The notes beneath the pieces are model-generated. The model ran no database searches and was not told where the DNA came from. It worked only from the letters and a program-made list of their open reading frames with translations. From an uncultured Intestinimonas sp. (GTDB lineage Bacteria; Bacillota; Clostridia; Oscillospirales; Oscillospiraceae): a DNA stretch of 64,000 nt. This document shows positions 23,239 through 47,814 of the stretch, piece after piece (the first letter of the stretch is position 1; every line of letters begins with the position of its first letter). A program made the translations under genes and the position numbers. The stretch is from the NCBI RefSeq assembly GCF_944387245.1, contig NZ_CALXEE010000002.1, positions 27,719-91,718 of the forward strand, read 5' to 3'.

Positions 23239-23762
23239 ATGAAATTATACCTGATCCGGCGGCGGGTCTTTACGGTGGGGCTGTGTCTGCTGGCAGCGGC
23301 GGGCATGCTCTACGTGGTGAACCACCCGGCCATCGTGGGGGCGTCGGCCACCACCCGGCAGCTGCCCATCTACTGTGTGGCCCGGGACCAGAAGGTGGCC
23401 TCTCTCACCTTTGATGCCGCCTGGGGCAACGAGGACACCCAGCAGCTCATCGACATTCTGGGAAAGTACGACGTAAAGGCCACCTTTTTTGTGGTGGGCG
23501 AGTGGGTGGACAAATACCCCGAGTCGGTGAAGGCTCTCTCCGACGCGGGGCACGAGGTCATGGACCACTCCAACACCCACCCCCACATGTCCCAGCTCAG
23601 CCGGGAGGAGATTCAAGCCGACGTCGCCGCCTGTGCCGACAAGATCGAGACTGTCACCGGGGTCCGGCCCACCCTCTTCCGGCCGCCCTACGGCGAGTAC
23701 GACGACAAGGTCATCACCGCCGTCCGGGCCCTGGGCATTGAGCCCATCCAGTGGGACGTGGA
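23239..23762 (+). pseudogene. Polysaccharide deacetylase (PdaB-like), 5' part, interrupted
   Basis: The first 175 residues of a membrane-anchored NodB-fold deacetylase. MKLYLIRRR and one span are followed by motif 1 in the PdaB form (LTFDAAWGNED), motif 2 (HSNTHPHM) and motif 3 (RPPYGEYD). The frame runs into the element after TGGGACGTGGA and ends at 23952 with 62 foreign residues. Motif 4 is cut (WDVD/SLDW) and the motif 5 His lies 24 kb away, so the truncated product should be inactive. The ATG follows AAGGAGG by eight bases. Joined to 47815-48076 it gives an uninterrupted 261-aa protein. PdaB-type deacetylases act in spore formation. Confidence 0.9.
23752..23762. repeat. Left attachment-site repeat (attL core)
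   Basis: TGGGACGTGGA, identical to 47804-47814. It encodes W-D-V-D of deacetylase motif 4. The sequence upstream is host deacetylase and downstream is element. Confidence 0.85.
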
Positions 23763-23955
23763 TGGTTCCCAAACAGCTTCAAGCCATTCATCCATCTTGA
23801 CCTGTGGGTTTTTGGATACCCTTCCAATGACGGCGCCGGAGCCTCCCTTTATGGCGGCATGGATCATAAAACGTCCTGCTGCGGACAATGTTTTGAGGGG
23901 GGGAGGACTATACGCACAGCATCATTTGCGCTCTGAGGCTCCGGGTGTATAATGA

Positions 23956-24393
23956 AGACAACACTGCATCCGGAGCGCCACCGTCATCTCCGCCACCCTT
24001 AGCAATGGCACGACTATTTCCAAGACCATCACTGTCACCGACGTCCTGGCCGATACGGTCATCAACCTGCCCCAGTTCCCCTGCACGGTGGAGCTTCGCA
24101 ATTCCTCCGGCGACCGGCTCTACCAGGGCACCATTACCGAAGGCCGGTATGATCTCCGGGACGGACTGCGGTTCTATCTGAAGGGCACGGTGGACGAGAT
24201 CACGCCCTCCGCCGCCTCCACCAACGCGCTGAGTTTCCAGATCACCGATGACGCCACCGGTGAGGTGGTGGACTACGGCGTGCCGGATATCTCCGGCCAG
24301 CTCGGGTCCTTTACCTACACCCCCTCCGGTTATAGCCCGGACGGCTACGGCCCGTTCAGCAAGGGTCGCAGCTATACCGTCACCTTCCAGTAA
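23956..24393 (+). pseudogene. 3' remnant of a surface-type beta-rich protein
   Basis: This is an open frame of 145 codons with no start at its left end (a stop at 23953-23955 comes first; the first ATG is at 24088). The translation (SATLSNGTTISKTITVTD, FPCTVELRNSSGDRLYQG, ending GRSYTVTFQ) looks like the end of an extracellular beta-sandwich protein. It was probably carried over from an earlier location of the element. No family is named. Confidence 0.55.
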
Positions 24394-24891
24394 CCGCCCC
24401 CGCAAAGGCCGGGGTCCCACCGGAAGTAACGCAGTCCATGCCGCCGCACTGCCGAAACGGCTTAGACATGCTGTAAAATAAGCGCATAAAAACGAGCGAG
24501 ATTTGGAGCCTGAAAGAGGTTCCAAACCTCGCCGTTTACTTTATGCTTCATTTGTGCGTGCAAAGGGAAAGCGGGGCCGATGATCTCAGCCGGGACGTCT
24601 GAGGTCGGGAGCGCTTTGCCAAGGTCTCCGAAATGCCCATATTTGAAGGCCCCGGGGCCTTCTGCTTTTCGATAGAGACGTCGACGATCATGACCGGCCA
24701 GCTGCACTTCCGGGTCAGGGCCGGAGCAGCGGCAGGATACCGCCATCCCCAGGGTACTCGCTGAGACGCCTTCTCTATCCCGTCCACCCGACCTGGACTC
24801 CGGTTGTCAGATTTGTCAGCCCATCTGAAGCTCATATCCACGCGGCATTCCACATAGAATACTTCCAACGTACTCGTTCAAAGAGAAAGGG
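24394..24891. other. Element left end, no recognisable gene
   Basis: About 500 bases between the surface-protein remnant and the small ORF at 24892. Short frames exist on both strands (for example MPIFEGPGAFCFSIETSTIM from 24633 on plus), but none has a ribosome site or a known family. Probably decayed sequence. Confidence 0.4.
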
Positions 24892-25005
24892 ATGAATGAC
24901 ATGAGAATTGTGCATCGGCATCCGCAGCAAACCGATGATATCCAGCGATCTCAAGTCCTGGCCAGGCTTTACCTGACCTGTGTCTCGCTTCTAAAAAAGC
25001 GCTAG
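24892..25005 (+). CDS. Small hypothetical protein before the recombinase
   Basis: A 37-codon frame (MNDMRIVHRHPQQ, ending LYLTCVSLLKKR) starting just after AGAAAGGG and ending 69 bases before the recombinase TTG. It is basic and contains no recognised domain. A recombination directionality factor could sit here, but nothing in the sequence proves it is even translated. Confidence 0.3.
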   Translation: MNDMRIVHRHPQQTDDIQRSQVLARLYLTCVSLLKKR

Positions 25006-25073
25006 CGTATGTGGCCATGACCATAGCCGGCGTGCAGCAAAGCCGCTTATGCAGAAGAAAGGAGGTGTCCGAC

Positions 25074-26531
25074 TTGGACGCAATCTATGCCCGGCAGTCT
25101 GTGGATAAGGCGGACAGCCTTTCCATTCAGGGCCAAATCGACCTGTGCCGGCAGCAGGCTGGCGATGACTGCAAAATCTATCAGGACAAGGGTTTCTCCG
25201 GCAAAAACACCAACCGCCCGTCCTTTCAGAAAATGATGGAGGATGTGGAGGGGGGACTGATCCGGAAAATCATTGTCTACCGCCTGGACCGCTTCTCCCG
25301 CTCCATTGCCGATTTCGGACGGCTGTGGGAGATCCTAAAGGCACATCAGGTGGAGTTTGTCTCCATGAACGAGACCTTCGATACCGCTACACCCATGGGC
25401 CGGGCCATGCTCAATATCATCATGGTCTTTGCCCAACTGGAGCGGGAGACCACAGCCGAGCGGGTACGGGACAACTATTATCAGCGGGCCAAACTGGGCT
25501 CCTGGCCGGGCGGTCCCCCACCCTATGGTTTTGCTATCGGGAAACTGCCGGGAACCGACGGGATGCTGGTCCCTACGCTGCTCCCCGATGACCATGCCCC
25601 AGTGGTGGAGCGTATCTTTCGGAGCTACGACCGTTCCGAGAGTACCCTGGGCAGTGTGGCCCGTGAACTGAACGCGGATGGTATCCCGGCTCCCAGACGG
25701 GTTACCTGGGACAACGTATCCCTGTCCCGCATCCTACACAGCCCCTTATATGTTATGGCGGACGAGGACATCTACCTTTATTATCAGGGAAAGGGGCTGA
25801 ACTTTGCCAACCGTCTGGAAGAGTTTGACGGCCTGCATGCCGGTATGATCGTTGGGAAACGGGACCGGAGCGCCGGGAAGTATCAGGACCTCAGGGACCA
25901 GCATTTCTCCCTGGCCAATCACTACGGTCTCCTTCCCTCAGAGCTGTGGCTCCGGTGCCAGTATAAGCTGGACCGTAACCGGCAGCTGGGAGGGGCGGGC
26001 AGGGGCAAACACACCTGGCTGACGGGATTGTTGAAATGCGCCAAATGCGGGTACAGTGTCAAGGTAAACCGGGACAAAGACAAATACTACCTTGTGTGCA
26101 GCGGACGGTCCAATCTGGGGCTGTGTGATGCGTCTATCCGTGTGGATCTCCGGGCGCTGGAGCACTCTGTGGAACAGGAACTGGAGCAGCTGCTGGCCCA
26201 GTGCCCTGAGGTGGAGCGTGACACCGGGGAGGACCGGGAGACGGCACAGGCCCTGGCGGAGATTGACCGGAAGATCGAACACCTGATGTCGGCGCTGGCC
26301 GAGGGCAGCGAACTGACTATGTCTTACATAAACCGCACCATTGAAAAGCTGGAACAACAGCGCACCCGGCTGCTGGAAAAGGAGGACAGGCTGCATCGGT
26401 ATCCAAAGCAGCTGCCGGGCCGCCTGAGATTCGGACCGCTGGACTTTGAGCAGAAAAAGCTGGTGGCGGCACAGTTCATCCGGGAGATCCAGATGTCCGG
26501 GGAGACGGCGGAAGTGATCTGGAATATATGA
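25074..26531 (+). CDS. Large serine recombinase (integrase of the element)
   Basis: A 485-aa serine integrase. The resolvase catalytic domain is at 1-150, with Ser9 in YARQS as nucleophile and the conserved YRLDRFSRS and GRAMLNIIMVFAQLERE. The recombinase domain follows (about 165-285), then a zinc ribbon (CAKCG...YYLVCSG...GLC), a coiled coil (about 385-445) and a C-terminal tail. All parts are intact, so integration and perhaps excision should be possible. The start is TTG at 25074, eight bases after AAAGGAGG; an upstream in-frame ATG lacks a ribosome site. Its own att sites are inferred to be the 11-bp repeats at 23752 and 47804. Confidence 0.92.
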   Translation: MDAIYARQSVDKADSLSIQGQIDLCRQQAGDDCKIYQDKGFSGKNTNRPSFQKMMEDVEGGLIRKIIVYRLDRFSRSIADFGRLWEILKAHQVEFVSMNETFDTATPMGRAMLNIIMVFAQLERETTAERVRDNYYQRAKLGSWPGGPPPYGFAIGKLPGTDGMLVPTLLPDDHAPVVERIFRSYDRSESTLGSVARELNADGIPAPRRVTWDNVSLSRILHSPLYVMADEDIYLYYQGKGLNFANRLEEFDGLHAGMIVGKRDRSAGKYQDLRDQHFSLANHYGLLPSELWLRCQYKLDRNRQLGGAGRGKHTWLTGLLKCAKCGYSVKVNRDKDKYYLVCSGRSNLGLCDASIRVDLRALEHSVEQELEQLLAQCPEVERDTGEDRETAQALAEIDRKIEHLMSALAEGSELTMSYINRTIEKLEQQRTRLLEKEDRLHRYPKQLPGRLRFGPLDFEQKKLVAAQFIREIQMSGETAEVIWNI

Positions 26532-27044: not shown

Positions 27045-27060
27045 TGGCACATGGGTTGCT
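27045..27060 (+). promoter_or_regulatory. Sigma-54 promoter of module 1
   Basis: TGGCAC-ATGGG-TTGCT matches the -24/-12 consensus, about 70 bases before the first gene (27131). It is expected to be activated by the enhancer-binding protein encoded at 34174. Confidence 0.9.
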
Positions 27061-27130
27061 TTATTTAGGGACAGGCATGCCTGGCTAAAAGATGAATTTG
27101 TATTGTGTAAGAAAGAGAAAGGTGGCATTT

Positions 27131-28273
27131 ATGAATCAAAATGAAAAAGTGTCATGGGGGACAATCCTGAGCGTATCGTCTGTGGCATTTGGCATCCATG
27201 TAGGTGGAGGCTTTGCCACTGGTAACCAGACGGTGACCTATTTTGTCAAGTATGGCTGGTGGGCCGCCGTGCTTCCCTTCGTCGCAATGCTCATTTTAAA
27301 TCTGGTCTTTCGTTCCGCACTGATCAACGCGCAGATCAATAAATCCGGCAACTACCGTGAGTGGGCTGATGGTGCTTTTGCACCCTTAAGCATGGTGTTC
27401 GGTACCATTTTTGAGATATGCTTTGTCATCATTACCTTGATCGCGGTGGCAACCTCCATTGCAGGAGCCGGATCTCTGCTAGAGACCTACGGGATTCCCT
27501 ATAATGTCGGTATTTTGCTCACCAGTATTCTGTTCCTTGTCCTGACCATTTTTGGAAAGGAACTGGTGGCAAAGGCATCTTCCTTTATGACCATCTGCAT
27601 CGTAATCTGCATGCTGATGCTCTGCTATGTGGGCCTGACCATGGATGGCGGTGATTTGAGCGGCGCAGTCAGTCCCTCCAACAACCCCATCGGATTCCTC
27701 CCCGCGGTGTGGAGCATGCTCCAATATGTGGGCTATCAGTCTTATACCGGCGCCACCATTTCGCCCTATGCCGCCACCCTGAAAAATAAGCATAACATCA
27801 ACAAAATGGTAATTGTCAACTTTATCCTCAACAGTGCCATGCTGGGTCTGTCCACCTTCACTTTGATGGCGTGGTCTGGAAAAGTAATGGACAGCACCCT
27901 CCCCATTCTGGAGATCGCCACCATGAGCGGTGTCGGGATTCTGCGCTATGCTTACACTATCGTTTTGTTCATGGCGTTTGTCTCCACCGGTGTGGGTTGT
28001 ACCTTTGGCTGTGTGACTCGATTTGAGGGCAAGGTGCTCAAGAATCTTGGCATGCTTCCCCGTCGTACCATTATCTCCTTTGTGGCCATTGCCCTGGCCA
28101 TGGGTATGAGTACGTTCGGCCTGACCGCGCTGGTAATGCAGGGCTACGGCAAGCTTGGTATCGTTGGTATCGTCATTATGATTATTCCTTGCCTGACCTT
28201 TATTTGGGCGCGCAATGTGAAGGGTGTTCCCACCCGCAAGGAGGCAATGGAAGAGCCCGGGCAGAAAAACTGA
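27131..28273 (+). CDS. YkvI-like membrane transporter
   Basis: A 380-aa integral membrane protein with about ten to eleven spans. It belongs to the YkvI/APC-like group (VSWGTILSVSSVAFGIHVGGGFATGNQ at the N-terminus is the usual discontinuous first helix with glycine-rich unwinding). It is first in the module 1 operon and so probably imports the acid or amino acid processed by the enzymes behind it. The ATG at 27131 follows AAGGTGG; an ATG 13 codons upstream has no ribosome site. Substrate unknown. Confidence 0.75.
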   Translation: MNQNEKVSWGTILSVSSVAFGIHVGGGFATGNQTVTYFVKYGWWAAVLPFVAMLILNLVFRSALINAQINKSGNYREWADGAFAPLSMVFGTIFEICFVIITLIAVATSIAGAGSLLETYGIPYNVGILLTSILFLVLTIFGKELVAKASSFMTICIVICMLMLCYVGLTMDGGDLSGAVSPSNNPIGFLPAVWSMLQYVGYQSYTGATISPYAATLKNKHNINKMVIVNFILNSAMLGLSTFTLMAWSGKVMDSTLPILEIATMSGVGILRYAYTIVLFMAFVSTGVGCTFGCVTRFEGKVLKNLGMLPRRTIISFVAIALAMGMSTFGLTALVMQGYGKLGIVGIVIMIIPCLTFIWARNVKGVPTRKEAMEEPGQKN

Positions 28274-28340
28274 ACAAGCAAACAGCAGGGCCTGGTAACA
28301 GGCACTTTCCAAATTGATGATTCAAGGGAGGAAATATCAA

Positions 28341-29471
28341 ATGATCATTCCACAAGATGTGCAAGACCTGCGGGACCTGGTTCGCCAGTTTGTAGATCAT
28401 GAGATCATTCCGTATGTCGCCGAGTATGACCGCTCCGGCGAGATGCCTACAGAGCTTTATGACAAGTGTATCGAACTGGGGCTGAACGCCGCATATATGC
28501 CTGCGAAGTATGGTGGGCCCGAACTGAGCAAACTGGCTTTTGCCGTTTTGCAGGAGGAACTGGCCAGAGGTGACATTGGCATCTCTACCACCATGGGCGC
28601 TACCTGCCTGGCCTCCCTCCCTGTGATGCTGGGTGGTACTGAGGAGCAGAAGGATCTCTGGTGGAATATCGTTGCGGAGAAGCACTTCGCGGCGTTTTGC
28701 CTGACTGAGCCCAATGCTGGATCTGATGCCGCCGGTATGCGCACCACCGCGGAGCGTGACGGGGATGACTACATCATCAACGGTACAAAGTGCTTTATCT
28801 CTAACGGCGGCCTGGCAGGTGTATATTCCGTCCTGGCTACCGTGGACCGCTCCAAAGGGCATAAGGGCCTGACCGCCTTTATCGTGGAACGGGACCGCCC
28901 CGGCGTTTCCGTGGGTAAGGAAGAGGACAAGATGGGCATGCGCCTTTCCAACACCACAGAAGTTATTTTTGACAACGTGCGCATTCCTGCCTCCAACCGC
29001 ATTGGCCCCGAGGGCGGCGGTTTCAAGGTTATCATGCAGACCCTGGACTATTCCCGCCCCGGCGTGGGCGCTCAGGGCGTGGGCATCGCCCAGCGGGCTT
29101 TGGAGGAGGCCGTGAAGTATGCCAAGCAGCGCAAACAGTTTGACCGGCCGATCGCCAGCTTCCAGGCGATTCAGTTCATGTTGGCCGACATGGCCATCGA
29201 GGTGGAGACGGCTCGTCAGATGGCCTATCATGTAGCCGACCTGATTGATCACGGAGCGACCGACTTTACCTATGAAGCCTGCATTGCCAAGACCCGGGGC
29301 GGTGATGCGGCCATGAAGGTAGCTGTGGATGCCGTGCAGGTGCTGGGCGGCTACGGCTATATGCGTGAGTACCCCGTGGAGAAGCTGATGAGAGATGCGA
29401 AGATCATCCAGATCTATGAAGGCACAAACCAGATTCAGCGGTCGGTGATTGCGGGGAAATTGCTGAAATAA
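28341..29471 (+). CDS. Acyl-CoA dehydrogenase / enoyl-CoA reductase 1
   Basis: A 376-aa acyl-CoA dehydrogenase with the FAD-binding motifs CLTEPNAGSDA and KCFISNG and the catalytic base Glu360 in YEGTNQIQR. Next to a 2-hydroxyacyl-CoA dehydratase it probably runs in reverse, reducing the enoyl-CoA formed by dehydration, as AcdA/AcdB-type enzymes do in clostridial Stickland reduction. No etfAB genes lie in the element, so electrons must come from host ETF. The ATG at 28341 follows GGGAGG by nine bases. It is 18 bases from the dehydratase gene and about 55% identical by eye to the second copy at 41556. Confidence 0.9.
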   Translation: MIIPQDVQDLRDLVRQFVDHEIIPYVAEYDRSGEMPTELYDKCIELGLNAAYMPAKYGGPELSKLAFAVLQEELARGDIGISTTMGATCLASLPVMLGGTEEQKDLWWNIVAEKHFAAFCLTEPNAGSDAAGMRTTAERDGDDYIINGTKCFISNGGLAGVYSVLATVDRSKGHKGLTAFIVERDRPGVSVGKEEDKMGMRLSNTTEVIFDNVRIPASNRIGPEGGGFKVIMQTLDYSRPGVGAQGVGIAQRALEEAVKYAKQRKQFDRPIASFQAIQFMLADMAIEVETARQMAYHVADLIDHGATDFTYEACIAKTRGGDAAMKVAVDAVQVLGGYGYMREYPVEKLMRDAKIIQIYEGTNQIQRSVIAGKLLK

Positions 29472-29489
29472 AAGGAAGGAGACTCCATT

Positions 29490-30710
29490 ATGGCGGAAAA
29501 TGTGCAAAAAACTGCGCCGTCCTCCAGGGAAATGCTGGGGTATTATCTCAACAAGAGCTATCAGGATGCCATAGAGGGAAAGGCCCGGGGGGAGCTGGTC
29601 TGCTGGGCAAGTTCGATCGCTCCTTGTGAGTTTTGTGAGACGATGGGCATACATATGCTCTATCCCGAAAATCATGCCGCTGCCATTGCCGCCAAGCACG
29701 GCGCGGAGGAAATGATCGAGCATGCAGAGAGCATGGGATATTCGGTTGACAATTGCTCTTATGCACGCATCAATCTGGCCTATATGGATATCCAAAAATG
29801 CGTTGCGGAGAATATGCCCCTGCCTGATTTTGTCCTGGTGTGCAATAACATCTGTGAGACGCTGATCAAGTGGTATGAGAACATTGCCTATCAGCTAAAG
29901 GTGCCCATCATTATGATTGATGTGCCGTACAACTATGAATACGAGCCATCTGAGTGGGCCATTGATTACATCGCCGCACAGTTTGAGCACGCCATTGAGC
30001 AGATGGAAGAGATCACCGGAAAGAAGTTTGACTATAACAAATATCGTGAGGTCATGCAGATTGCCGCGGAGAGCTCTTACTGGTGGACAAAGGCCATGGG
30101 GATGGCCGCTGCCAAGCCCAGCCCGCTGAACGGTTTTGATATCTTCAACTATATGGCGCTCATCGTGTGCATGCGTGGAAAGACCGGCTGCCGTGACACC
30201 TTTAAAAAATTGGCCGAGGAGCTGGAGGAGAAGATCCAGAAGGGTGAGCCCGCCTTCAAGGAGGGTGAAAAGTACCGCATCATGTGGGACGGCATTGCCT
30301 GCTGGCCTTATCTGAGCCACAACTACAAGGCCATGCGTGCATTGGGGATGAACATGACCGGTTCCACCTATCCCAGAGGATGGAAGCTGGACTATGACAA
30401 GGATGATATCCGCAGCATGGCCCGCGCCTACACCAGCGTCGGAAACAATCTGTCACTGGAAGCGCAAATCGATCTGAAAACCGAAGTCGTAAGGACTTAT
30501 AACTGCCAGGGTGTGACATACCATCTCAACCGCAGCTGCAAATGTATGGACTTCCTGTTCCATGAGATGCAGACCGAGGTGGCGCGCCGGACGGATACGC
30601 CCTACATCACCTTTGATGGAGATCAATCCGACCCCCGGAATTTCTCCAAGGCTCAGTTTGAGACGCGGGTGCAGGGCCTGGCTGAAATGATGGAGCAGCG
30701 CAAGTCGTAA
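29490..30710 (+). CDS. 2-hydroxyacyl-CoA dehydratase, larger subunit (HgdA/HadB type)
   Basis: A 406-aa subunit of the oxygen-sensitive [4Fe-4S] dehydratase that removes water from (R)-2-hydroxyacyl-CoA by a ketyl radical mechanism. Visible features include the Cys-rich N-terminal segment CWASSIAPCEFCETMG, CNNICETL, and a C-terminal SCKCMDF region that supplies cluster cysteines. It is immediately followed by the partner subunit (18 bases) and the activator. Substrates of relatives are lactoyl-, 2-hydroxyglutaryl-, 2-hydroxyisocaproyl- and phenyllactyl-CoA; the sequence alone does not choose. Confidence 0.9.
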   Translation: MAENVQKTAPSSREMLGYYLNKSYQDAIEGKARGELVCWASSIAPCEFCETMGIHMLYPENHAAAIAAKHGAEEMIEHAESMGYSVDNCSYARINLAYMDIQKCVAENMPLPDFVLVCNNICETLIKWYENIAYQLKVPIIMIDVPYNYEYEPSEWAIDYIAAQFEHAIEQMEEITGKKFDYNKYREVMQIAAESSYWWTKAMGMAAAKPSPLNGFDIFNYMALIVCMRGKTGCRDTFKKLAEELEEKIQKGEPAFKEGEKYRIMWDGIACWPYLSHNYKAMRALGMNMTGSTYPRGWKLDYDKDDIRSMARAYTSVGNNLSLEAQIDLKTEVVRTYNCQGVTYHLNRSCKCMDFLFHEMQTEVARRTDTPYITFDGDQSDPRNFSKAQFETRVQGLAEMMEQRKS

Positions 30711-30728
30711 GGGAAGGGAGAGGCTAGT

Positions 30729-31850: not shown

Positions 31851-31883
31851 GAAAAGAAGCGCCGGAAAAGTGCGGAAAGGCGG

Positions 31884-39123: not shown

Positions 39124-39798
39124 GATGCGTGAGCGAATCACCGGAAATCACCAGTATCTGGAAGAACGGCGCTTCTCATTGTTTGCACACGACGAGTTGA
39201 TCCCATCCGATTTGCGGCTCAAATGCCAGTATAAACTGGACACAAATCAGCAGATGAAAACATGGGCAAGGGAAAACACACCTGGCTTTCTGGACGGTTG
39301 AAATGTGCCTGCTGTGGATACGGCGTCAAGGTCAACCGTGACAAAGAGGAATACTACCTGGTGTGCAGCGGCCGTTCTAATCTAAGGGTGTATCATTCAT
39401 CCATCCAGATAGATCTGCGAGCACTGGAGGCCTCCGTGGAGGCAGAATTGGAGCGGCTTTTGGCGGAATGCGCGGACGTAAGGGAGCAGCCGGAAGACGA
39501 TCAGCAAAAAGCGGCGGCCCTAGCTGAAATTGATCGGAAGATTAAACGTCTTATATCCGCCCCGGCAGAAAGCAATGATCTGTCGATGGGCTATATCAAC
39601 CGCACCATTGCAAAACTGGAGAGCCAACGGCAGGTCCTGCTGGCGCAGCAGGCCAGACAGTGCGGCAGTCCCCCTGCAAAATTAAAGCATTTGAAATTTG
39701 ACCACTGGAGTTTGAGCAGGAAAATCTGCAGCTATACCAGATACACAGGATTGGGGTTGGTACAGATAGAAGGGATACAATCCAGCTTCTGTATATAA
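39124..39798 (+). pseudogene. Remnant of a second large serine recombinase
   Basis: This is the C-terminal third of a recombinase closely related to the intact one at 25074. MRERITGNHQYLEERRFSLF to CQYKLD matches the end of its recombinase domain. After a frameshift near 39262, GKGKHTWLSGRLKCACCGYGVKVNRD to the coiled coil matches its zinc ribbon (third and fourth cysteines altered: the GLC of the intact protein is VYH here). A further frameshift near 39700 scrambles the tail (PLEFEQENLQ is in another frame). The catalytic domain is absent. It sits exactly between the two cargo modules. Confidence 0.85.
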
Positions 39799-39982: not shown

Positions 39983-41374
39983 ATGGATACTACCTTTGAA
40001 AAGTTTTTTGTTTCAGATCTGCTGAGGGATATCCCTCTGGAGGAGGTCATGGTAGAAGCTTCTGACAGCGTGATGATTACCAACGGAGACGGTGTCATCT
40101 GTGGGATCGGGCATACGATGCTGGAGAACCTCGGAGCAACACCCCAAGAGATCCTGGGATATACGGTGGATGACTTGGTCGCGCAGGGGTACTATGACCG
40201 CTCTGTGATTCGGGAGTGTATCAACAAACGCAAAACTGTCAGCGGCTTGCTGAAGGACCGCTTTGATCACAATCTGTTTTCTACGGCAAAACCTATTTTC
40301 AGCGAAAATGGCCATATCCGTTTTGTGGTTACCAACACACGCGGCGGCCATGTCCTGGATCAATATCTCAAGGAGTTACAGGAAAGCCGGAACAAATATC
40401 AGGGCATTACGGATTATCTGCGCACACGCACCAAAAAGTGTGGAATTGTTGCCCAGAGCTCTGAGATGGTACATCTGATGTCATTGTGCAAGCGGATTGC
40501 TGCCACCGATGGAACTGTGCTTTTAACGGGCGAAAGCGGAACCGGAAAAGAAGTATGTGCTACCTATATTTATGAGAACAGCCGGCGGGTACAGGAGACC
40601 TTTCTGCCGATTAATTGCAGTGCTATTCCTGCTGATCTGGTGGAATCCGAACTATTTGGATATGAGAAAGGTGCATTTACCGGCGCGGATACAAAGGGGC
40701 GGACCGGCCTTTTGGAAGTGGCCAATCATGGGACGGTTTTCCTGGATGAGGTGGGAGAGCTTCCCCTGCATGTGCAGCCAAAACTTCTGCGTTTTTTGGA
40801 GACTGGAGAGATCAAACGTGTAGGCGGGAGCAAATACATCTCATCCGATGTGCGCATCATCGCTGCCACAAATCGGGACTTGAAAAAACTTGTGGCACAG
40901 CATAAATTCCGCGAGGACCTCTATTACCGCCTGAATGTGGTCCCTCTTCATATCGCGCCGCTCCGTGATCGGAGAGAGGATATCCTGCCGCTGGCAGAAT
41001 TTTTTCTGAGCCGGTTCAATCGAAAGTATGAAAAGCAGGTAACTTTCCCACAAAAGGTGCAAGATTGGATGATGAGCTATGCCTGGCCAGGCAATGTCCG
41101 TGAGTTGAGGAATTTTGTGGAGCGTACGGTGATTACCGGCGTGGAGGAGGATCCAGTGCCGTTGCCTGAGCTGGGGCAGGCTGATGAAAGGCCGGAACAG
41201 TCGGATGAGATTCAGGAGTTGCTCCCGCTCCATCAGGCAGTAAAGGAATTTGAGACGGCATATATTCAAAAGGCTGTCCGCGCTTCCAACGGCAATATGA
41301 CCCAGGCGGCAAAGCTGCTGTGTGTCCACAGGAGCCAACTGTACCGGAAACTTTCCGAACACCAGGCGGAATAG
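39983..41374 (+). CDS. Sigma-54 activator 2 (PAS-AAA-HTH)
   Basis: A 463-aa enhancer-binding protein. The PAS-like sensor is in residues 20-125 (MVEASDSVMITNGDGVICGIG), the AAA+ domain has GESGTGKE near 184 and the sigma-54 loop GAFTGA at 230-235, and the C-terminal Fis HTH ends NMTQAAKLLCVHRSQLYRKL. It is 180 bases upstream of the -24/-12 promoter of module 2 on the same strand and is its obvious activator. A terminator-like repeat separates the two transcription units. GAAAGGGAG precedes the ATG. Confidence 0.92.
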   Translation: MDTTFEKFFVSDLLRDIPLEEVMVEASDSVMITNGDGVICGIGHTMLENLGATPQEILGYTVDDLVAQGYYDRSVIRECINKRKTVSGLLKDRFDHNLFSTAKPIFSENGHIRFVVTNTRGGHVLDQYLKELQESRNKYQGITDYLRTRTKKCGIVAQSSEMVHLMSLCKRIAATDGTVLLTGESGTGKEVCATYIYENSRRVQETFLPINCSAIPADLVESELFGYEKGAFTGADTKGRTGLLEVANHGTVFLDEVGELPLHVQPKLLRFLETGEIKRVGGSKYISSDVRIIAATNRDLKKLVAQHKFREDLYYRLNVVPLHIAPLRDRREDILPLAEFFLSRFNRKYEKQVTFPQKVQDWMMSYAWPGNVRELRNFVERTVITGVEEDPVPLPELGQADERPEQSDEIQELLPLHQAVKEFETAYIQKAVRASNGNMTQAAKLLCVHRSQLYRKLSEHQAE

Positions 41375-41403
41375 AGCAGATCACAATATGTAGCAAAAAT
41401 AAG

Positions 41404-41454
41404 ACGTCGCATATTTACAACAATAAGTTTGTTGCAAATATGCGACGTTTTTTG
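41404..41454 (+). terminator. Terminator hairpin, possibly also an activator site
   Basis: Perfect 13-base arms ACGTCGCATATTT (41404-41416) and AAATATGCGACGT (41436-41448), with further pairing inside and T6 after the second arm. It ends activator gene 2 and lies 40-85 bases upstream of the module 2 promoter, where an activator could also bind. Confidence 0.8.
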
Positions 41455-41488
41455 CTGCAATTCCTGGTTTTACAAGGGGTTGCAGTGT

Positions 41489-41504
41489 TGGCACTGCGTT
41501 TGCA
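41489..41504 (+). promoter_or_regulatory. Sigma-54 promoter of module 2
   Basis: TGGCAC-TGCGT-TTGCA matches the -24/-12 consensus; the start codon follows 52 bases later. Confidence 0.9.
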
Positions 41505-41555
41505 TATAGATAAGGCCGTAAAGTTCCCAACCGACAGGAAGGAGTGTATTACACC

Positions 41556-42710
41556 ATGGAACAATTTCATAAACACATTCTGACCAGTGAGCAGCAGGAC
41601 CTTCAGGCCTTTGCGCGAGACTTCGCTACGAAGGAGGTCGCCCCCGTCGTTGCGGAGTGTGACCGGAAGGGCGAGTTCCCACTGGAGGTTTTCCACAAAT
41701 TCTGTGATGTTGGCTTCAATACGATGTTCCTGCCTGAGGCTTATGGCGGACAGGGCCTGGGGGCCATGGATATGGTGGTAGTCTACGAGGAGTTTGCCAA
41801 AGTGGACGCCGGCTTTATCTGCAGCGCAAGTACGGGAGAATTCGGAATTGAGCCCATTCTGGTGGCCGGCACTGAAGAGCAGAAGAAGTATTACATGGAT
41901 TTTATCCTGCAGGGCGGCCTGGGCGCGTTTGCCCTGACTGAGCCGAATGCCGGTTCTGATGCCGCCGCTACAAAGACCACTGCGGTTCGTGACGGCGATG
42001 ACTACATTATCAATGGACGTAAGTGCTTTATTACCAGCGGGCCGGTGGCCAATGTTTACAGTGTCTTTGCTTCCACGGACCCCAGCATGGGTGCAAAGGG
42101 GATCAGCTGCTTCATTGTGGAGCGTGATCGTCCGGGCGTTTCTGTGGGTAAGGACGAGGACAAGATGGGCATGCGGCTTTCTTGTACGTCGGACGTAATT
42201 TTTGAAGATGTACGTATTCCCGCCAAGAACCTGGTGGGCGCAGAAGGAAAGGGATTCGGCCTGGCCATGAAGTGCCTGGACCGCAGCCGGGGCGTGAACT
42301 CCTATGGTGCCCTGGGTATTGCCCAGCGTGCGCTGGATGAGGCGGTAGCCTATGCCAAACAGCGGAAAACCTTTGGAAAGCCCATTATCAAGCATCAGGG
42401 TGTGCAATTCCTGTTGGCCGACATGGAAGTGGATGTGACCACTGCCAGGGCGCTGCTTTGGCAGTGTGCCCAGATGGTCGATAAGGGTATTTTTGATACG
42501 AAACTCGGATCTGTGACCAAGACCTTCCTCAGCGAAATGGCCATGCGGGTCACCACCAACGCTGTGCAGGTCCTGGGCGGCTACGGCTACAGCCGCGAGT
42601 ATCCGGTGGAGAAGTTGATGAGAGATGCCAAGCTCTGGGCCATTTTTGAAGGCACCAACCAGATTCAGCGAATGGTCATCTCGGGCTGCCTGGCACAGCA
42701 GGGGGGCTGA
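41556..42710 (+). CDS. Acyl-CoA dehydrogenase 2
   Basis: A 384-aa acyl-CoA dehydrogenase: ALTEPNAGSDA, KCFITSG, and catalytic Glu365 in FEGTNQIQR. It is a paralogue of the enzyme at 28341. Here it is followed by two hydratases and a CoA-transferase, which fits oxidation of an acyl-CoA to enoyl-CoA followed by hydration. The direction cannot be proved from sequence, and there is no ETF in the element. ATG 41556 was chosen; an in-frame GTG four codons earlier would lie within the ribosome site. The stop overlaps the next start by one base. Confidence 0.9.
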   Translation: MEQFHKHILTSEQQDLQAFARDFATKEVAPVVAECDRKGEFPLEVFHKFCDVGFNTMFLPEAYGGQGLGAMDMVVVYEEFAKVDAGFICSASTGEFGIEPILVAGTEEQKKYYMDFILQGGLGAFALTEPNAGSDAAATKTTAVRDGDDYIINGRKCFITSGPVANVYSVFASTDPSMGAKGISCFIVERDRPGVSVGKDEDKMGMRLSCTSDVIFEDVRIPAKNLVGAEGKGFGLAMKCLDRSRGVNSYGALGIAQRALDEAVAYAKQRKTFGKPIIKHQGVQFLLADMEVDVTTARALLWQCAQMVDKGIFDTKLGSVTKTFLSEMAMRVTTNAVQVLGGYGYSREYPVEKLMRDAKLWAIFEGTNQIQRMVISGCLAQQGG

Positions 42711-43498
42711 TGAGATTGGAGTACGAAAATATCCTTTACGAAGTGAAAGACCAGGTGGCGGTCATTACACTCAATCGCCCGAAGGCATGGAATGCCCTTT
42801 GCAGTGAACTTAACCAAGAACTGGAGGATGCGATCCATCGGGCTGATTCCGATCCTGGTGTTCGTGTTCTGATTATCACCGGCGGAAAAAAGGTGTTTGC
42901 CGCGGGTGCCGATGTCAAGCAGATGGCCGACGCTACGCCAATGGATGCGGCCAGAACCGCAGAGCAGGGACAGCGAATCAACGAGCTGATAGAATCCATC
43001 GGATTACCCGTCATTGCGGCACTGGACGGCCTGGCCCTAGGCGGGGGCTGCGAACTGGCCATGTCCTGTGATTTCCGTGTGGCAGGAAAGAGCGCAGCAT
43101 TCGGTCAACCAGAGGTAGGCTTGGGCATTCTTCCGGGAGCCGGAGGAACGCAGCGCCTGGCGCTTCTGGCGGGTCCGGGGATCGCCCGGGAGATGGTACT
43201 GCTGGGCCGGCAGCTGACTGCGGAAGAAGCTCTGACCTGTGGACTGGTGACACGGCTGGCGGAGGCTGGCCAAGCGCTGGAAGAGGCCCTGTCTCTGGCC
43301 GAGACGCTGGTCCGTAAGCCGGCATATGCCTTGGCGCAGGCAAAACACGCCATTGTGGCGGGGCAAAATTTTGGTGTTGGCTACGGAAAGCTGTTTGAGC
43401 GGCAATGCTTCTCCCTGACCTTTGCCAACCCCGATCAGACAGAGGGGATGCATGCTTTCTTGGAGCGGCGTCACCCCGAATTTGAAAATCGGCGCTGA
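42710..43498 (+). CDS. Enoyl-CoA hydratase (crotonase family)
   Basis: A 262-aa crotonase. The oxyanion-hole segments AAGADVKQM and ALGGGCELAMSCDF and both catalytic glutamates are present: Glu in GGGCE and Glu in GQPEVGLGILPGAGG. A true (S)-specific hydratase is therefore likely, rather than an isomerase or hydrolase. The ATG overlaps the dehydrogenase stop (TGATG), so translation is coupled. Confidence 0.9.
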   Translation: MRLEYENILYEVKDQVAVITLNRPKAWNALCSELNQELEDAIHRADSDPGVRVLIITGGKKVFAAGADVKQMADATPMDAARTAEQGQRINELIESIGLPVIAALDGLALGGGCELAMSCDFRVAGKSAAFGQPEVGLGILPGAGGTQRLALLAGPGIAREMVLLGRQLTAEEALTCGLVTRLAEAGQALEEALSLAETLVRKPAYALAQAKHAIVAGQNFGVGYGKLFERQCFSLTFANPDQTEGMHAFLERRHPEFENRR

Positions 43499-43533
43499 GC
43501 CGGGATGTTCTTCATGACAAGGAGGCGTATAGT

Positions 43534-45099
43534 ATGAAACTCATTCCCTCTTCACAGGTTGGGGAACTGATCAAAGATAGCTCCAGTATTCTGCTCACGG
43601 GAATCACCCTGGGTGGATATGCCGAGGAAGCCTTCATGAAAATCGAAGAGCATTTTCTGGAGACTGGGCACCCCAGAGATCTGACACTTTACTGGCAGGC
43701 ATCCGTGGGCGATATGAATACCAAGGGATTGAGTCATGTCTGCCATGAGGGACTGCTCACTAAGGGCGTGGGCGGCCACATCAATGGCTGCGGCAAGGTA
43801 ATGACGGAGTTCTGCAGGGACAACAAAGCCGCTATCTACAACTGGCCTCAGGGCGTATGTGTTGCGATGATGCACGCCATCGCGGCCAAGACCCCGGGTG
43901 TTATCACGAAGATCGGCCTGAAAACATTTATGGACCCCCGCTATGGAGGCGGCCGCATGAATGCGGCGGCCACTGAGGACCTTATCGAGCTGGTGAACCT
44001 GAACGGCGAGGAATGGCTGCTCTACAAGGCCCCCAAACGGATCGACGTGGCCATTATCCGAGGTACAGTGGCCGATGAGCACGGCAACATCTCCATGACC
44101 AAAGAGGGCTACAAGCTGGGGCAGCTGGCTGCGGCCGAAGCCGCCCGCGCCACCGGAGGCATTGTAATCTGCCAGGTGGAGCGCATTGTCAAGGCTGGGA
44201 CCCTCAATCCCCGCCTCGTGGAGGTGCCCGGCGTGCTGGTGGATTATGTATATGTGGCCGATCCGGAGTACCACTGGCAGACGGCTGCTTCCCGGTTTAA
44301 CCCGGTGTTTTCCGGCGACTGCAAGGTTCCCCTGGAGAGTATCCCCCCTGTTAAATTTGACGTCAAAAAGGTGATGGCACGTCGGGCCGCCATGGAGCTC
44401 CGGGAGGGGTATATCGTAAATCTGGGCATTGGCACCCCCGAGTATATCAGCGCGGTCGCCAGTGAAGAGGGCTGCTCGGATCTCTTTACCCTGAGTACAG
44501 AGGCGGGAAACATCGGCGGCGTGCCCACGGTGGGAAACGACTTCGGCTGCTGCTGGAACGGCGAGGCCATGATTGAAACCGCCGGGATCTTTGACATGTA
44601 CGATGGCGGCAGTCTGGACGCGGGCTGCCTGGGCTTCCTGGAAGTAGGCCCCAACGGCGATCTGAACTCCAGCAAAAAGGAAGGCCTGGGGATCGGTGTC
44701 GGCGGGTTCATGAACATCGCGGGCGGCGCCAAACATGTGGTGTTCATCAGCTCCTTTACGGCCGGAAAGCCGGAGTATCAGCTGGGCAACGGCAAGCTGC
44801 GCATTGTCCGGGATGGCAGCAAGAAAAAATTCATTCAGAATATCGCGCAGATTTCTTTTAGCGCCGAGGTGGCTTTGGATCAGGGCAAAGACATCACCTA
44901 TGTGACCGAGCGGGCTGTCTTCAAGCTTACCCGCGAGGGACTGCTACTCACGGAGATCGCCCCCGGCGTGGACCTTCAGAAGGACATCCTGGACCAGATG
45001 GAATTTACACCTATTGTGGACAAGAATCTGAAGGAGATGCCGTCTGAGATTTTCCAGGAGCAATGGGGCGGACTGCGTGCCTACATGACAAAGGAGTGA
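43534..45099 (+). CDS. Class I CoA-transferase (acetate/propionate CoA-transferase type)
   Basis: A 521-aa fused alpha-beta CoA-transferase like YdiF and propionate CoA-transferase. The N-terminal half has GITLGGYAEE and GGHINGCG; the C-terminal half has the active-site Glu in TLSTEAGNIGGVP. It activates the incoming carboxylate with CoA taken from acetyl-CoA or the product. It belongs to a different subfamily from the transferase of module 1. AAGGAGG precedes the ATG; the next gene starts six bases after the stop. Confidence 0.88.
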   Translation: MKLIPSSQVGELIKDSSSILLTGITLGGYAEEAFMKIEEHFLETGHPRDLTLYWQASVGDMNTKGLSHVCHEGLLTKGVGGHINGCGKVMTEFCRDNKAAIYNWPQGVCVAMMHAIAAKTPGVITKIGLKTFMDPRYGGGRMNAAATEDLIELVNLNGEEWLLYKAPKRIDVAIIRGTVADEHGNISMTKEGYKLGQLAAAEAARATGGIVICQVERIVKAGTLNPRLVEVPGVLVDYVYVADPEYHWQTAASRFNPVFSGDCKVPLESIPPVKFDVKKVMARRAAMELREGYIVNLGIGTPEYISAVASEEGCSDLFTLSTEAGNIGGVPTVGNDFGCCWNGEAMIETAGIFDMYDGGSLDAGCLGFLEVGPNGDLNSSKKEGLGIGVGGFMNIAGGAKHVVFISSFTAGKPEYQLGNGKLRIVRDGSKKKFIQNIAQISFSAEVALDQGKDITYVTERAVFKLTREGLLLTEIAPGVDLQKDILDQMEFTPIVDKNLKEMPSEIFQEQWGGLRAYMTKE

Positions 45100-45105
45100 T
45101 GAGAA

Positions 45106-45537
45106 ATGCCCATTGAGTTCAAATCCTTTGACAGCTTTCACATCGGTGACAAGGCATCACAATCCAAGACGGTCACAGAGGCGGATGTGGTGTTGTTTTC
45201 CGGCCTGACAGGTGATTTTAATCCAATTCATCTGGACGCAGAGTACGCAAAAAAGTCCTTCTTTGGTACCCGCCTGGTGCAGGGGATGTTTGTTGCCAGC
45301 CTGATTGGAGCCGTTGCGGCGCCGCTCTGCGGCAGCGCCTCCATCAATATGGGACAGACCTTTACCTTCCCGGCACCGGCGCGCATTGGGGATACGCTGA
45401 CCGCGACCATCGAGGTCATCGAAAAAGTGGAAGAAAAGCATGATCTCATTCTGAAGCTGACCGTAACCCGCCAGGATGGTGTGGTTGTCCTGGATGGCAC
45501 TAATACTGTTAAGATCATGGACAAAAAGAAAAAATAA
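45106..45537 (+). CDS. MaoC-like (R)-specific enoyl-CoA hydratase
   Basis: A 143-aa single hot-dog protein. The hydratase-2 motif GDFNPIHLDAEYAKKSFFGTRLVQGM carries the Asp/His dyad. It hydrates trans-enoyl-CoA to the (R)-3-hydroxyacyl-CoA, or the reverse. With the (S)-specific crotonase in the same operon it could convert one 3-hydroxyacyl stereoisomer to the other through the enoyl-CoA. Alternatively the two act on different substrates. Confidence 0.88.
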   Translation: MPIEFKSFDSFHIGDKASQSKTVTEADVVLFSGLTGDFNPIHLDAEYAKKSFFGTRLVQGMFVASLIGAVAAPLCGSASINMGQTFTFPAPARIGDTLTATIEVIEKVEEKHDLILKLTVTRQDGVVVLDGTNTVKIMDKKKK

Positions 45538-45567
45538 TCTCAGAGATTTCGAGGAGGAGATTCACCG

Positions 45568-46905
45568 ATGCAAGTGATCAGCTTGATTTGTATTTTGATC
45601 GCATTGGCTGCCATGATGTACTTCGGTTACCGTGGAACTCCCATCGTCCTTGTTGCTCCTTTGTGTGGTATCTTTGTCTGTTTGACCAGCGGCATTGACC
45701 TTGCAGAAGGCATGGGCACTGTCTATCTGGGCGGATTCGGCAACTGGGTTGGCAGTTACTTCTTTACCCTGTTCACAGGCGCCATTTTCGGCTGCGTGAT
45801 GACGGATAGCGGAGCTGCCCGCTCCATTGGACTAACTCTGAGCAGTCTGGCCCTAAAGTTCAAGGGACATGAAAAAATCGCGGCGCTCTGGTGCATTCCG
45901 CTCCTGTCTTTTGTGCTCAGCTATGGCGGCATCAGCGTATTCGTGGCCTTCTTTACCGTGATCGCCATCGCAAAAGAACTCTTTGAAAAAATGGACATTC
46001 CCTGGCGTCTCTACGGTGTGGGTTCTCTGGGTGTCTCCGCCCTGGCCCTCACCATGGCCCCCGGCTCTCCCTCGGTCAACAACAACATTGCCAGCAACTA
46101 CCTGGGTACGACCGCTATGGCTGCCCCGGTCCTCTCACTGCTTGCCATGCTCATCGCCATCATTCTGGGACACATCTATTTCTCTTGGGAACTGGGAAAT
46201 GTACGCCGCAAGGATGAGCACTTCCTGCCCACTGGCGCTGAGATCGCCAAGGTCGATCTGCTGAGCAACGCGGGTGCTACGGGTGAATTCAAGGAGATGA
46301 ATATTTTCGTCGCCCTGATCCCCTCCATCGTCCTGATTGTCCTGCTCAACCTGGTTCACCTCCCCGTATATATTGCCTCCTTTGTAGCCATCCTGGTGGC
46401 CTATGTCCTGTTCTGGAACCGTTTGCATACCAAGGTGGCCACCGCCCAGAGAGGCGCTGTACAGGCAATCACCTCCGCCTGCACTGTGGCCCTCGTGGTG
46501 GGCTTCGGCTCCGTGGTGTCTGCGACCACCGGCTATCAGGTCATTCTGAACGCGCTGGCAATGATCCCCGACAACCTGGGCTATTTCCAGGTCATCATTG
46601 CCGTCAACCTGGCCGCTGGCGTAACAGGTTCTTCCAGCGGCGGCCTGAGCATCGCGCTGGATTCCATGAGCGATCGTTTCCTCAATGTCCTTCACCTGGA
46701 CCCCGCCGCGGTACACCGCATTGCCTGCATCAGCTCCGGCGGCCTGGATTCTCTCCCCTGCAATGGTACTGTGCTGAACGAACTGGCCATGGCGAAGCTG
46801 ACGCCCCGTGTCGGCTACCGCCCCATGTTTGTCCTGACCGTCATCACGCCCATCATCACCGCCTGCATCGTCGGACTGGTGGCCACATTGGTAGGGGGTA
46901 TGTAA
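45568..46905 (+). CDS. GntP-family carboxylate permease of module 2
   Basis: A 445-aa protein with about 12 spans and GntP-family features (LSYGGISVFVAFFTVIAIAKELF, MAPGSPSVNNNIAS, GSSSGGLSIALDSM). It is a relative of the permeases at 1367 and 49411. It probably imports the acid degraded by module 2. GAGGAGG lies ahead of the ATG. Confidence 0.85.
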   Translation: MQVISLICILIALAAMMYFGYRGTPIVLVAPLCGIFVCLTSGIDLAEGMGTVYLGGFGNWVGSYFFTLFTGAIFGCVMTDSGAARSIGLTLSSLALKFKGHEKIAALWCIPLLSFVLSYGGISVFVAFFTVIAIAKELFEKMDIPWRLYGVGSLGVSALALTMAPGSPSVNNNIASNYLGTTAMAAPVLSLLAMLIAIILGHIYFSWELGNVRRKDEHFLPTGAEIAKVDLLSNAGATGEFKEMNIFVALIPSIVLIVLLNLVHLPVYIASFVAILVAYVLFWNRLHTKVATAQRGAVQAITSACTVALVVGFGSVVSATTGYQVILNALAMIPDNLGYFQVIIAVNLAAGVTGSSSGGLSIALDSMSDRFLNVLHLDPAAVHRIACISSGGLDSLPCNGTVLNELAMAKLTPRVGYRPMFVLTVITPIITACIVGLVATLVGGM

Positions 46906-46909
46906 CTTC

Positions 46910-47587
46910 ATGAATCAAGAGAGGAAAGGGGGATCGTCTCTCTTCCTTCGATGTGTGCTCTGCCTGATTGGCATGTTTCTATACGCGTGCGGCGTTATAC
47001 TCACCAAGAATTGCGACCTGGGCATTTCTCCTATTACCAGTGTCGCCTACGCGATGTCGCTGATCAGCGGCATCTCCCTTGGCTGGTGTACCTCGCTGTT
47101 CAACATCGCTCTGTTTATTCTCCAGAAGGCCCTGCTGAGATCCCGGTATACATGGCGGACGCTGCTGTCTCAGGCTGTCATGAGTATTCTCTTCAGCATT
47201 TTTATCGACAGCGCCGGAATCCTGTTGGGTAACATATGCCCGAGTGCTTACGCAAGCCGTATATTGCTCTTTGTTTTCGGGTGCTTTGTACTGGCCGCCG
47301 GCATGAACCTTATTCTCCACGCAAAATTTGTTGTTCTCCCTGCAGAGGGCGCAGTGACAGCCATTCAGAACAAAAGCGGTCTCTCGTTTGGTACCACAAA
47401 AATCGCCTTTGATGCAGTCATGGTTTTTCTGACGATTGTACTCACCATCGTATTCTTGCATCAGATAAAGGGCATCCGGGAAGGAACGATTTTGGCAGTC
47501 ATACTGATTGGGAATTTCTCCCGTCTGTTTACGAGAAAGGGGAAGCTCGCAAAATCAACCTCCCCATCAGAGCTGTTAGAAGAGTGA
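46910..47587 (+). CDS. YczE/DUF6198-type membrane protein
   Basis: A 225-aa membrane protein with about six spans. The N-terminal LIGMFLYACGVILTKNCDLGISPITSVAYAMS matches the conserved start of the YczE/YitT-like group. Function is not established for the family. It begins four bases after the GntP stop, so it belongs to the module 2 operon and may help transport. Confidence 0.72.
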   Translation: MNQERKGGSSLFLRCVLCLIGMFLYACGVILTKNCDLGISPITSVAYAMSLISGISLGWCTSLFNIALFILQKALLRSRYTWRTLLSQAVMSILFSIFIDSAGILLGNICPSAYASRILLFVFGCFVLAAGMNLILHAKFVVLPAEGAVTAIQNKSGLSFGTTKIAFDAVMVFLTIVLTIVFLHQIKGIREGTILAVILIGNFSRLFTRKGKLAKSTSPSELLEE

Positions 47588-47671
47588 TAAAACAGAGAGC
47601 AAACCCCTTGCTGTAGAGGAAGAAAGACATTCGATCCGGAAGATCAGAATTTCTGCAGAGCCCATAAGCTG

Positions 47672-47709
47672 ACAGATGGCTCCGGTTCACATAGACCGGG
47701 GCCATCTGT
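47672..47709 (+). terminator. Hairpin at the right end of the element
   Basis: A 15-bp stem with one mismatch (47672-47686 with 47695-47709, arm ACAGATGGCTCCGGT), 85 bases after module 2. It shields the interrupted deacetylase from read-through. Confidence 0.7.
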
Positions 47710-47803
47710 TATGTCAGGATAGAAAGACTGTGTGGAACGGCTATGTAGACAGGATGTTCAGAGCTGATCTCTTGTGCCTCTATCCCAGCGGCTTGAACCT
47801 GTT

Positions 47804-47814
47804 TGGGACGTGGA
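47804..47814. repeat. Right attachment-site repeat (attR core)
   Basis: TGGGACGTGGA, identical to 23752-23762. The sequence to the right continues the deacetylase; to the left is element sequence. Confidence 0.85.

Follow-up and report, generated by a model that had tools for sequence, protein, structure and literature searches.

A 24-kb large serine recombinase element with metabolic cargo splits a PdaB-like deacetylase gene and is likely a sporulation-timed intervening element

Why should a deacetylase gene lie in two halves 24 kb apart, with a block of metabolic genes between them, and can a cell make use of a gene in that state? The question is raised by a stretch of 64,000 nucleotides from an uncultured Intestinimonas sp. 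(RefSeq assembly GCF_944387245.1, contig NZ_CALXEE010000002.1, positions 27,719 to 91,718), here called the window and numbered from its first letter. In the window, a PdaB-like polysaccharide deacetylase gene is cut in two by a 24,052-bp insertion. Exact copies of TGGGACGTGGA flank the insertion at 23752-23762 and 47804-47814 and occur nowhere else in the window, where the chance expectation for this word is 0.06; two copies turned up in 1 of 100 shuffles. Fusing the flanks at TGGGACGTGGA gives a single open frame (...PIQWDVD joined to SLDWKDL...) of 260 residues after the Met. The features that define the block are as follows.

23239..23762, plus strand: deacetylase 5' half, through the GA of QWDVD's second Asp codon, placed by the joined frame and by orthologues
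23737..23786, plus strand: attachment site attL, consisting of the attB left half, the core (23752-23762) and the attP right arm TCCCAAACAGCTTCAAGCC (23767-23785)
25074..26531, plus strand: large serine recombinase (LSR) LSR1, with a likely TTG start in a frame open from 25011, assigned by Pfam, alignment and PHROG
47790..47829, plus strand: attachment site attR, consisting of the attP left arm GGCTTGAACCTGTTTGGGA (47790-47808), the core (47804-47814) and the attB right half
47804..48076, plus strand: deacetylase 3' half, in frame to the stop

Uninterrupted deacetylase genes were found in two relatives, G009 (91% identical) and G004 (79%), with CCATCCAGTGGGACGTGGACAGCCTGGACTGG at the site, and these intact orthologues rule out two paralogues joined by chance. 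The six 4-kb segments between 24 and 48 kb had a G+C content of 51 to 55%, and the segments on either side had 65% and 60%; the first 4 kb of the window also had 52%. A preliminary description of this DNA had placed the two halves of one deacetylase gene 24 kb apart, with the same word at both junctions, an intact LSR near the left end and an element delimited to the base, and had proposed a search for relatives with an uninterrupted gene. That search was run and gave the empty sites in G009 and G004. All four claims held, the first by the joined frame and the intact orthologues, the second by TGGGACGTGGA at 23752 and 47804, the third by the presence of all three recombinase domains, and the last by the unoccupied site in relatives, the attP palindrome and dozens of genomes broken at the same place. 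The insertion splitting the deacetylase gene is confirmed as genuine.

In attR the core is preceded by, and overlaps, GGCTTGAACCTGTTTGGGA, and in attL it is followed by TCCCAAACAGCTTCAAGCC. Combined, the two element ends give a predicted attP of 48 bp, an inverted repeat whose center is the GA that ends the core. The predicted attP was palindromic about the same GA in all 27 elements with both ends, the window's included, with a mean of 15.8 of 24 positions (n = 27) versus 6.2 for random pairs, and 18 of 24 for the window's own. At least 12 positions matched in 25 of the 27 elements, a value reached by 1.1% of random pairs, and the other two had 11. The attB site shows a partial dyad about the same GA. 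A palindromic attP centered on the GA is as expected for the element's large serine recombinase, and it agrees with the attachment sites of the gin element as described in the accessible part of its report (PMC5595907). Tandem integration with internal att sites was considered and rejected, as the arm-like internal matches have 5 mismatches and lack context (at 42353 in the window and several in G244); the reading of G244 as an att-stacked tandem was dropped.

LSR1 is an intact protein that has resolvase, recombinase and zinc-ribbon domains (PF00239, PF07508 and PF13408) and matches the integrase family phrog_95; Y9, R11 and S13 are invariant in an alignment of 24 family members. By sequence it also matches structures of YokA, which we take to be the same protein as SprA. 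Its scores against the CcrA, CcrB and CcrC profiles were 63 to 111 bits, with cut-offs of 700 to 900. LSR1 as a known phage or plasmid integrase was set aside, the matches at E<=1e-40 being 2 phage and 7 plasmid records at 28 to 38% identity. The sequence supports integration of the element by LSR1 with crossover at the core GA, and that the 24-kb block is an LSR integrative element appears as good as certain.

The same arrangement recurs far beyond this genome. In a family-wide draw of 400 genomes, searched for LSR1 relatives at E<=1e-110, 33 genomes (the host included) carried one relative each. Of the 32 bearers other than the host, 31 have a deacetylase broken at query codon 174, with both halves found in 26 and one half in 5; the exception, G291, has an intact deacetylase and the most distant LSR (41%). 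We inspected 30 junctions, comprising the intact gene of G291, one 3' half and 28 5' halves, and all 28 of the latter break right after TGG-RAY-GTN-GA. A second set of 80 LSR loci, taken from genome records with identities down to 35% and flanks of at most 10 kb, overlaps the first (L130 is G007 and L159 is G024, for example). There, a half with that break was present in 46 loci and none lay within the flank in 34; L174 and L197 are less clear by eye. Some bearers are cultured: Anaerovorax odorimutans DSM 5092 has both halves, about 5.2 kb apart with the LSR between them (L183), Anaerotignum lactatifermentans An390 showed the 5' half, and Clostridium sp. D33t1 showed the 3' half. Among 80 loci from viral contigs, three (L211, L215 and L221) have a 3' half after the LSR, so some family members may be prophages. 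The PdaB-like gene is a recurrent docking site for a whole LSR family.

The same deacetylase was also seen broken at a second site, at about codon 58 to 69 (SLTFDAAWGNEDT), in loci L038 (G008), L040 (G007), L041 and L042 (G003) and L047 (G005). A different LSR, about 24 to 26% identical to LSR1, lies near this site in G008, G007 and G003, and some genomes, such as G007 and G244, have the gene interrupted at both sites. On contig C6 of G080, the 3' half is 42 kb upstream of the 5' half and the LSR 47 kb downstream, an arrangement that a simple insertion would not produce and that suggests rearrangement or misassembly.

What kind of gene is the target? Its best NCBIfam match, leading the next family by 46 bits, is TIGR02764 (spore_ybaN_pdaB), the sporulation protein PdaB, and the window's genome has one weaker deacetylase paralogue (144.6 bits). 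Sigma-E is a mother-cell factor. Bacillus subtilis spoVIE (pdaB) is tabled among sporulation genes with the label sigma-E regulon in the accessible part of PMC4703394, and SpoIIID binds upstream of ybaN and spoIVA according to the available text of PMC517825. The equation of ybaN with pdaB rests on the name of TIGR02764, and the mother-cell status of the deacetylase gene is carried over from B. subtilis.

A link to sporulation is also suggested by two small features directly upstream of LSR1.

24832..24860, plus strand: predicted sigma-E-like promoter TCATATC-n14-CATAGAAT, ending 31 nt before the 37-residue open reading frame (ORF)
24892..25005, plus strand: 37-residue ORF, a candidate recombination directionality factor (RDF), with similar ORFs in relatives

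The short ORFs form a family of 34 to 53 residues with the pattern M-x-I-x-H-x-H-P...R...L...C...L, the HP part being lost in one subgroup. Directly before the LSR, 24 of 28 family genomes have one (G007, G276, G317 and G221 do not), as do 4 of 27 additional loci; the remaining 23 loci, mostly with distant LSRs, have none or other short ORFs, and Flavonifractor sp. An92, with an LSR identity of 62%, is among those without a clear one. The 37-residue ORF has no PHROG match. Its position and size make it a natural RDF candidate, like CD1234 of the Clostridioides difficile skin element as described in the accessible part of PMC5025042, and we infer that it may serve as one. The box CATANNNT ends 12 to 50 nt before the short ORF in 18 of 28 cases. 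Of 249 control ORFs, which were taken as any ATG ORF of 200 residues or more and are not verified as genes, 15 had such a box, as did 3.0% of shuffles. On a 14-point score against the sigma-E consensus, at least 11 points were reached upstream of the short ORF in 11 of 28 cases versus 3.1% of shuffles, and upstream of pdaB in 52% of 46 genes versus 8.5% of shuffles.

The interrupted gene also appears to be kept in working order. In a survey of stop codons covering 33 interrupted genomes (the host, the 31 broken bearers and G006), 29 yielded a 5' half and 31 a 3' half, none with a stop within aligned codons; single stops listed in some pieces were taken as lying beyond the break or the gene end, and some 5' halves start at codon 50 to 61 owing to a second break. 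Two species of one genus, G121 and G244, have about 14.4 kb of element in common at 89 to 93% identity. Their synonymous divergence (dS) is 0.46 for the LSR and 0.56 (5') and 0.43 (3') for pdaB, similar values that joint inheritance of element and gene would predict. Over 251 codons, their pdaB genes differ by 5 nonsynonymous versus 65 synonymous changes, giving a ratio of nonsynonymous to synonymous divergence (dN/dS) of 0.011 to 0.014, where the neutral expectation is about three quarters nonsynonymous (binomial P about 1e-34). Such strong purifying selection means that pdaB must function in some state of the genome, and excision would be the simplest route to a functional gene in this pair. 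Other pairs with unsaturated dS gave dN/dS values of 0.01 to 0.34, joint inheritance of the LSR not being clear in them; pairs with saturated dS were not interpreted, and vertical inheritance of the element was used for G121 and G244 only.

Further split genes were sought in a panel of 51 genomes made up of 19 relatives and 32 bearers, with the host among the bearers and G291 excluded. Bearers are over-represented in it, and its counts are therefore contrasts and not rates. SpoIVA had a match in 49 of the 51 genomes and was over the cut-off in 47, the window's genome included. Its pieces lie apart on one contig in G121 (31 kb), G276 (42 kb) and G364 (252 kb) and on two contigs in G003. SigK (E<=1e-25) matched in 47 of 51, none over the cut-off; the single full-length match that most genomes have, beside a second match, is perhaps sigE. 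Complementary sigK-like pieces with a break near codon 105 to 121 were on the same contig in G007, G239, G033 and G034 and on two contigs in G282, G276 and G032, and six more genomes had a lone piece. The protease GPR, a forespore protein, matched in 43 of 51 genomes (the window's included; 8 had no match), and none of the matches was split by an element, the two pieces in G371 being about 95 bp apart. GyrB matched in all 51 genomes, 44 of them over the cut-off and the other 7 partial or paralogue-only with contig ends unchecked, and separated complementary pieces on one contig were seen in none. Split sigK-like and spoIVA genes, with gpr and gyrB not seen split by an element, fit the remark, in the accessible text of PMC6957869, that almost all sporulation intervening elements reside in mother-cell genes.

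Some details of these splits stand on their own. The spoIVA break is at about codon 403 in G121 and G276 and at 147 in G364 (loci L312-L317), and ORFs of 560 to 645 residues, serine-recombinase-like by eye, adjoin the breaks in all three. The sigK-like pieces are 7 to 15 kb apart on G007:C4, G239:C45, G033:C19 and G034:C51, like skin elements.

From the sequence evidence, we consider the block probably to be a non-phage, LSR-driven, sporulation-timed gene-intervening element, a "pdaB cassette." It would thereby resemble skin, SP-beta and above all gin, which leave the chromosome in sporulating cells and restore a mother-cell gene as they do so. LSR1 would insert the circular form at the conserved attB in the PdaB-like sporulation gene, with crossover at the GA of TGGGACGTGGA. 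In the sporulating mother cell, the sigma-E-type promoter would switch on the short ORF and LSR1. The short protein would act as directionality factor, the element would leave as a circle and pdaB would be rebuilt; the spore would retain the inserted copy. Between rounds of sporulation, the site would dock exchangeable metabolic or surface-protein cargo.

Several observations weigh against this picture. The PdaB family score of the deacetylase, 210.8 bits, is below the curated cut-off of 237.4, a miss that is not informative because no control genome, B. subtilis included, passes either. The host's own pdaB has a weak upstream promoter score (9 of 14), and the window's genome, a draft that is 82% complete, gave no sigK match. 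The short ORF is missing in 4 of the 28 family genomes and not clear in 23 of the 27 further loci, and these ORFs were picked by eye (55 loci) without formal control. The CATA box (CATANNNT) is lacking in 10 of 28, and its distance range was fixed after inspection of the data. At L135, a bearer outside the 33 genomes, the 5' half has a gap and a frame change. The strong test of selection comes from the single pair G121 and G244, the pair G306 and G371 has the highest dN/dS (0.25 to 0.34), and LSR and pdaB identities correlate loosely (Spearman 0.46, 351 pairs), which implies that replacement of insertions is frequent and that some of them may be recent. Excision itself is a prediction from sequence.

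The block could instead be an ordinary LSR element whose attB lies in pdaB by chance, the gene being inactivated and dispensable and its intact halves a mark of young, quickly replaced insertions. In favor of this, conserved motifs are a common location of LSR attB sites, members of a genus exchange LSR lineages, and L135 has a damaged half. We judge this unlikely, however, given the lack of stops in the halves of 33 genomes, the dN/dS of 0.011 to 0.014 in a pair with one inherited element, the sigma-E-like box before the short ORF and LSR, and the splitting of sigK-like genes and spoIVA with gpr and gyrB not seen split. Excision by chance or under stress in some cells (a polymorphism resembling active lysogeny), with selection in those cells keeping pdaB and no control by sporulation, would also account for an intact gene, and the yin element of Clostridium botulinum was excised at all time points in the accessible part of its report (PMC10747680). 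The CATA-box promoter before the short ORF points instead to timed expression, and we regard unscheduled excision as distinctly improbable. An assembly artefact or a chance joining of two paralogues has hardly any likelihood left, and for the family is already refuted, by the empty-site orthologues, the palindrome of attP and a structure that recurs in many other assemblies (G319, with 2 contigs, included), even though the window's genome is an 82%-complete draft of 136 contigs.

The cargo of the pdaB element is carried in two modules.

27045..27060, plus strand: exact sigma-54 -24/-12 box of module 1, ending 31 nt before the ORF start at 27092
27092..38852, plus strand: cargo module 1 (Pfam, NCBIfam)
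39128..39702, plus strand: decayed second LSR, matching LSR1 residues 267-461, frameshifted
39983..47587, plus strand: cargo module 2 (Pfam, NCBIfam)
41489..41504, plus strand: exact sigma-54 -24/-12 box of the module 2 acyl-CoA dehydrogenase, ending 39 nt before the ORF start at 41544

Module 1 encodes an acyl-coenzyme A (acyl-CoA) dehydrogenase, a HadB/HadC-like 2-hydroxyacyl-CoA dehydratase, its activase and a CoA-transferase, together with a sigma-54 activator, a transporter of the major facilitator superfamily, an ORF without a Pfam match (membrane-protein-like by eye) and a reductase resembling BaiCD and old yellow enzyme; it looks like a reductive 2-hydroxyacyl-CoA pathway. Module 2, which encodes a sigma-54 activator, an acyl-CoA dehydrogenase, an enoyl-CoA hydratase, a CoA-transferase, a MaoC hydratase, a GntP-like permease and a YczE/DUF6198 membrane protein, looks suited to short-chain acyl-CoA use with the GntP-type permease. 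A third exact sigma-54 box, at 388, is outside the element, and boxes with at most one mismatch numbered 6 versus 2.97 expected. The preliminary description had seen two complete sigma-54 catabolic modules and an interior free of phage and conjugation genes. The first of these stands in part: each module has its activator and exact box, but the BaiCD-like (bilirubin-reductase-like) gene of module 1 is in two frames (36820-37992 and 37911-38852), through mutation or sequencing error. The second was borne out, in that the 19 element ORFs scanned, which exclude one antisense ORF without a match, included no phage structural families (Pfam) and no relaxase or transfer genes (Pfam and NCBIfam). The second LSR between the modules belongs to LSR1's family, is frameshifted and lacks residues 1-266; with no good internal att match, fusion or an exchange of cargo within the element explains the remnant better, and it points to a fusion of two elements. 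Near attL, the left 1.1 kb of the element holds a coding-looking fragment of 142 residues (23965-24390) with no match elsewhere in the window or in loci L037-L317 as searched. Outside the element, another sigma-54-type activator ORF (52722-54746, minus strand) adjoins dehydratase-, aldolase- and dehydrogenase-like ORFs, named by eye.

Annotation of 22 cargo ORFs in relatives gave a different content from one element to the next. G121 has a molybdenum-hydroxylase-type protein and a purine-type permease, G189 a TRAP transporter with a molybdopterin oxidoreductase, G319 and G364 giant S-layer phosphoesterases, and G024 Sel1-repeat and Schlafen-type proteins; four ORFs of G371 had no match at 1e-8. 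In G006 (L044), attR is within about 130 bp of the end of an LSR 90% identical to LSR1, a gap that leaves room for nothing like the window's cargo, and the shortest element found, in G316, is about 3.3 kb. A cargo common to the relatives was looked for and discarded, the matches being scattered ones of 26 to 48% in 8 loci. The window's element thus carries metabolic genes, non-phage to the extent scanned, and cargo varies between elements.

On a broader and more tentative level, pdaB may be the landing site of Clostridia-wide, largely non-viral "metabolic cassettes" whose cost to the host is kept low by their own mother-cell-timed excision operon (sigma-E promoter, RDF of about 40 residues and LSR). 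Sporulation genes would then be safe harbors for the exchange of catabolic and surface-protein modules in the gut, with pdaB (at two sites), spoIVA and sigK interrupted in parallel, sometimes in one genome. We regard this wider picture as quite possible, if a little short of probable. The elements described here link developmental gene splitting to the mobility of metabolic gene clusters among gut anaerobes and make the idea of mother-cell genes as safe harbors for mobile DNA testable. They also contribute a family of candidate directionality factors and further LSR/att pairs in which the core is defined.

How does the pdaB element compare with known systems? A search of the open-access literature found no report of an element in pdaB. 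In staphylococci, serine-recombinase cassettes (SCC) carry exchangeable cargo at a single chromosomal site. These cassettes, named in the accessible part of PMC5595907, work much as the pdaB element would; they differ in their target, LSR1 is far below the Ccr cut-offs, and no internal att arm was found in the pdaB element. The known sporulation intervening elements, in sigK, spsM, spoVFB, spoVR, gerE and yabG in the sources available, make a short list. It is extended here by pdaB, a gene in which dozens of elements have docked across Clostridia. What is new is this target, the metabolic cargo and the conserved short ORF. The preliminary description had thought such an island undescribed, which can be upheld at most for the target gene and cargo within the open-access literature, given the precedent of gin, the non-phage, LSR-driven element of 28.6 kb in gerE of Bacillus cereus ATCC10987 (PMC5595907, accessible part). 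Its overall interpretation was right about an LSR-driven, base-exact element with metabolic cargo and missed the sporulation target, the docking site and gin.

According to the same part of that report, gin resembles the pdaB element in being non-phage, LSR-driven, of similar size and within a mother-cell sporulation gene, a status presumed for the PdaB-like gene, and in having a short shared core that ends 3' in the dinucleotide predicted to be cleaved, at the center of the inverted repeat (PMC5595907). It differs in its gerE target, its occurrence in Bacilli and its three recombinase genes, and that text mentions no metabolic cargo; gin excision was shown in vivo and in vitro, whereas excision of the pdaB element is predicted from sequence. 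The SP-beta prophage in spsM (SprA/SprB; PMC4191935, accessible part) combines an LSR with a small RDF, as proposed for the pdaB element, but is an active prophage, while the pdaB element has no phage structural genes among the 19 ORFs scanned. The skin element of sigK in B. subtilis and C. difficile is an LSR element in a mother-cell gene, as the pdaB element probably is, and in C. difficile its small directionality factor CD1234 is made in the mother cell only; it is prophage-like, with another target gene and LSR lineage (PMC5025042, accessible part). Unlike in skin, the short ORF and LSR of the pdaB element appear to share one promoter. Finally, yin in yabG of C. botulinum, as far as the accessible text goes (PMC10747680), shares with the pdaB element a conserved sporulation gene as target and a home in the Clostridia; it is prophage-like and described as single-strain, whereas the pdaB elements span many genera.

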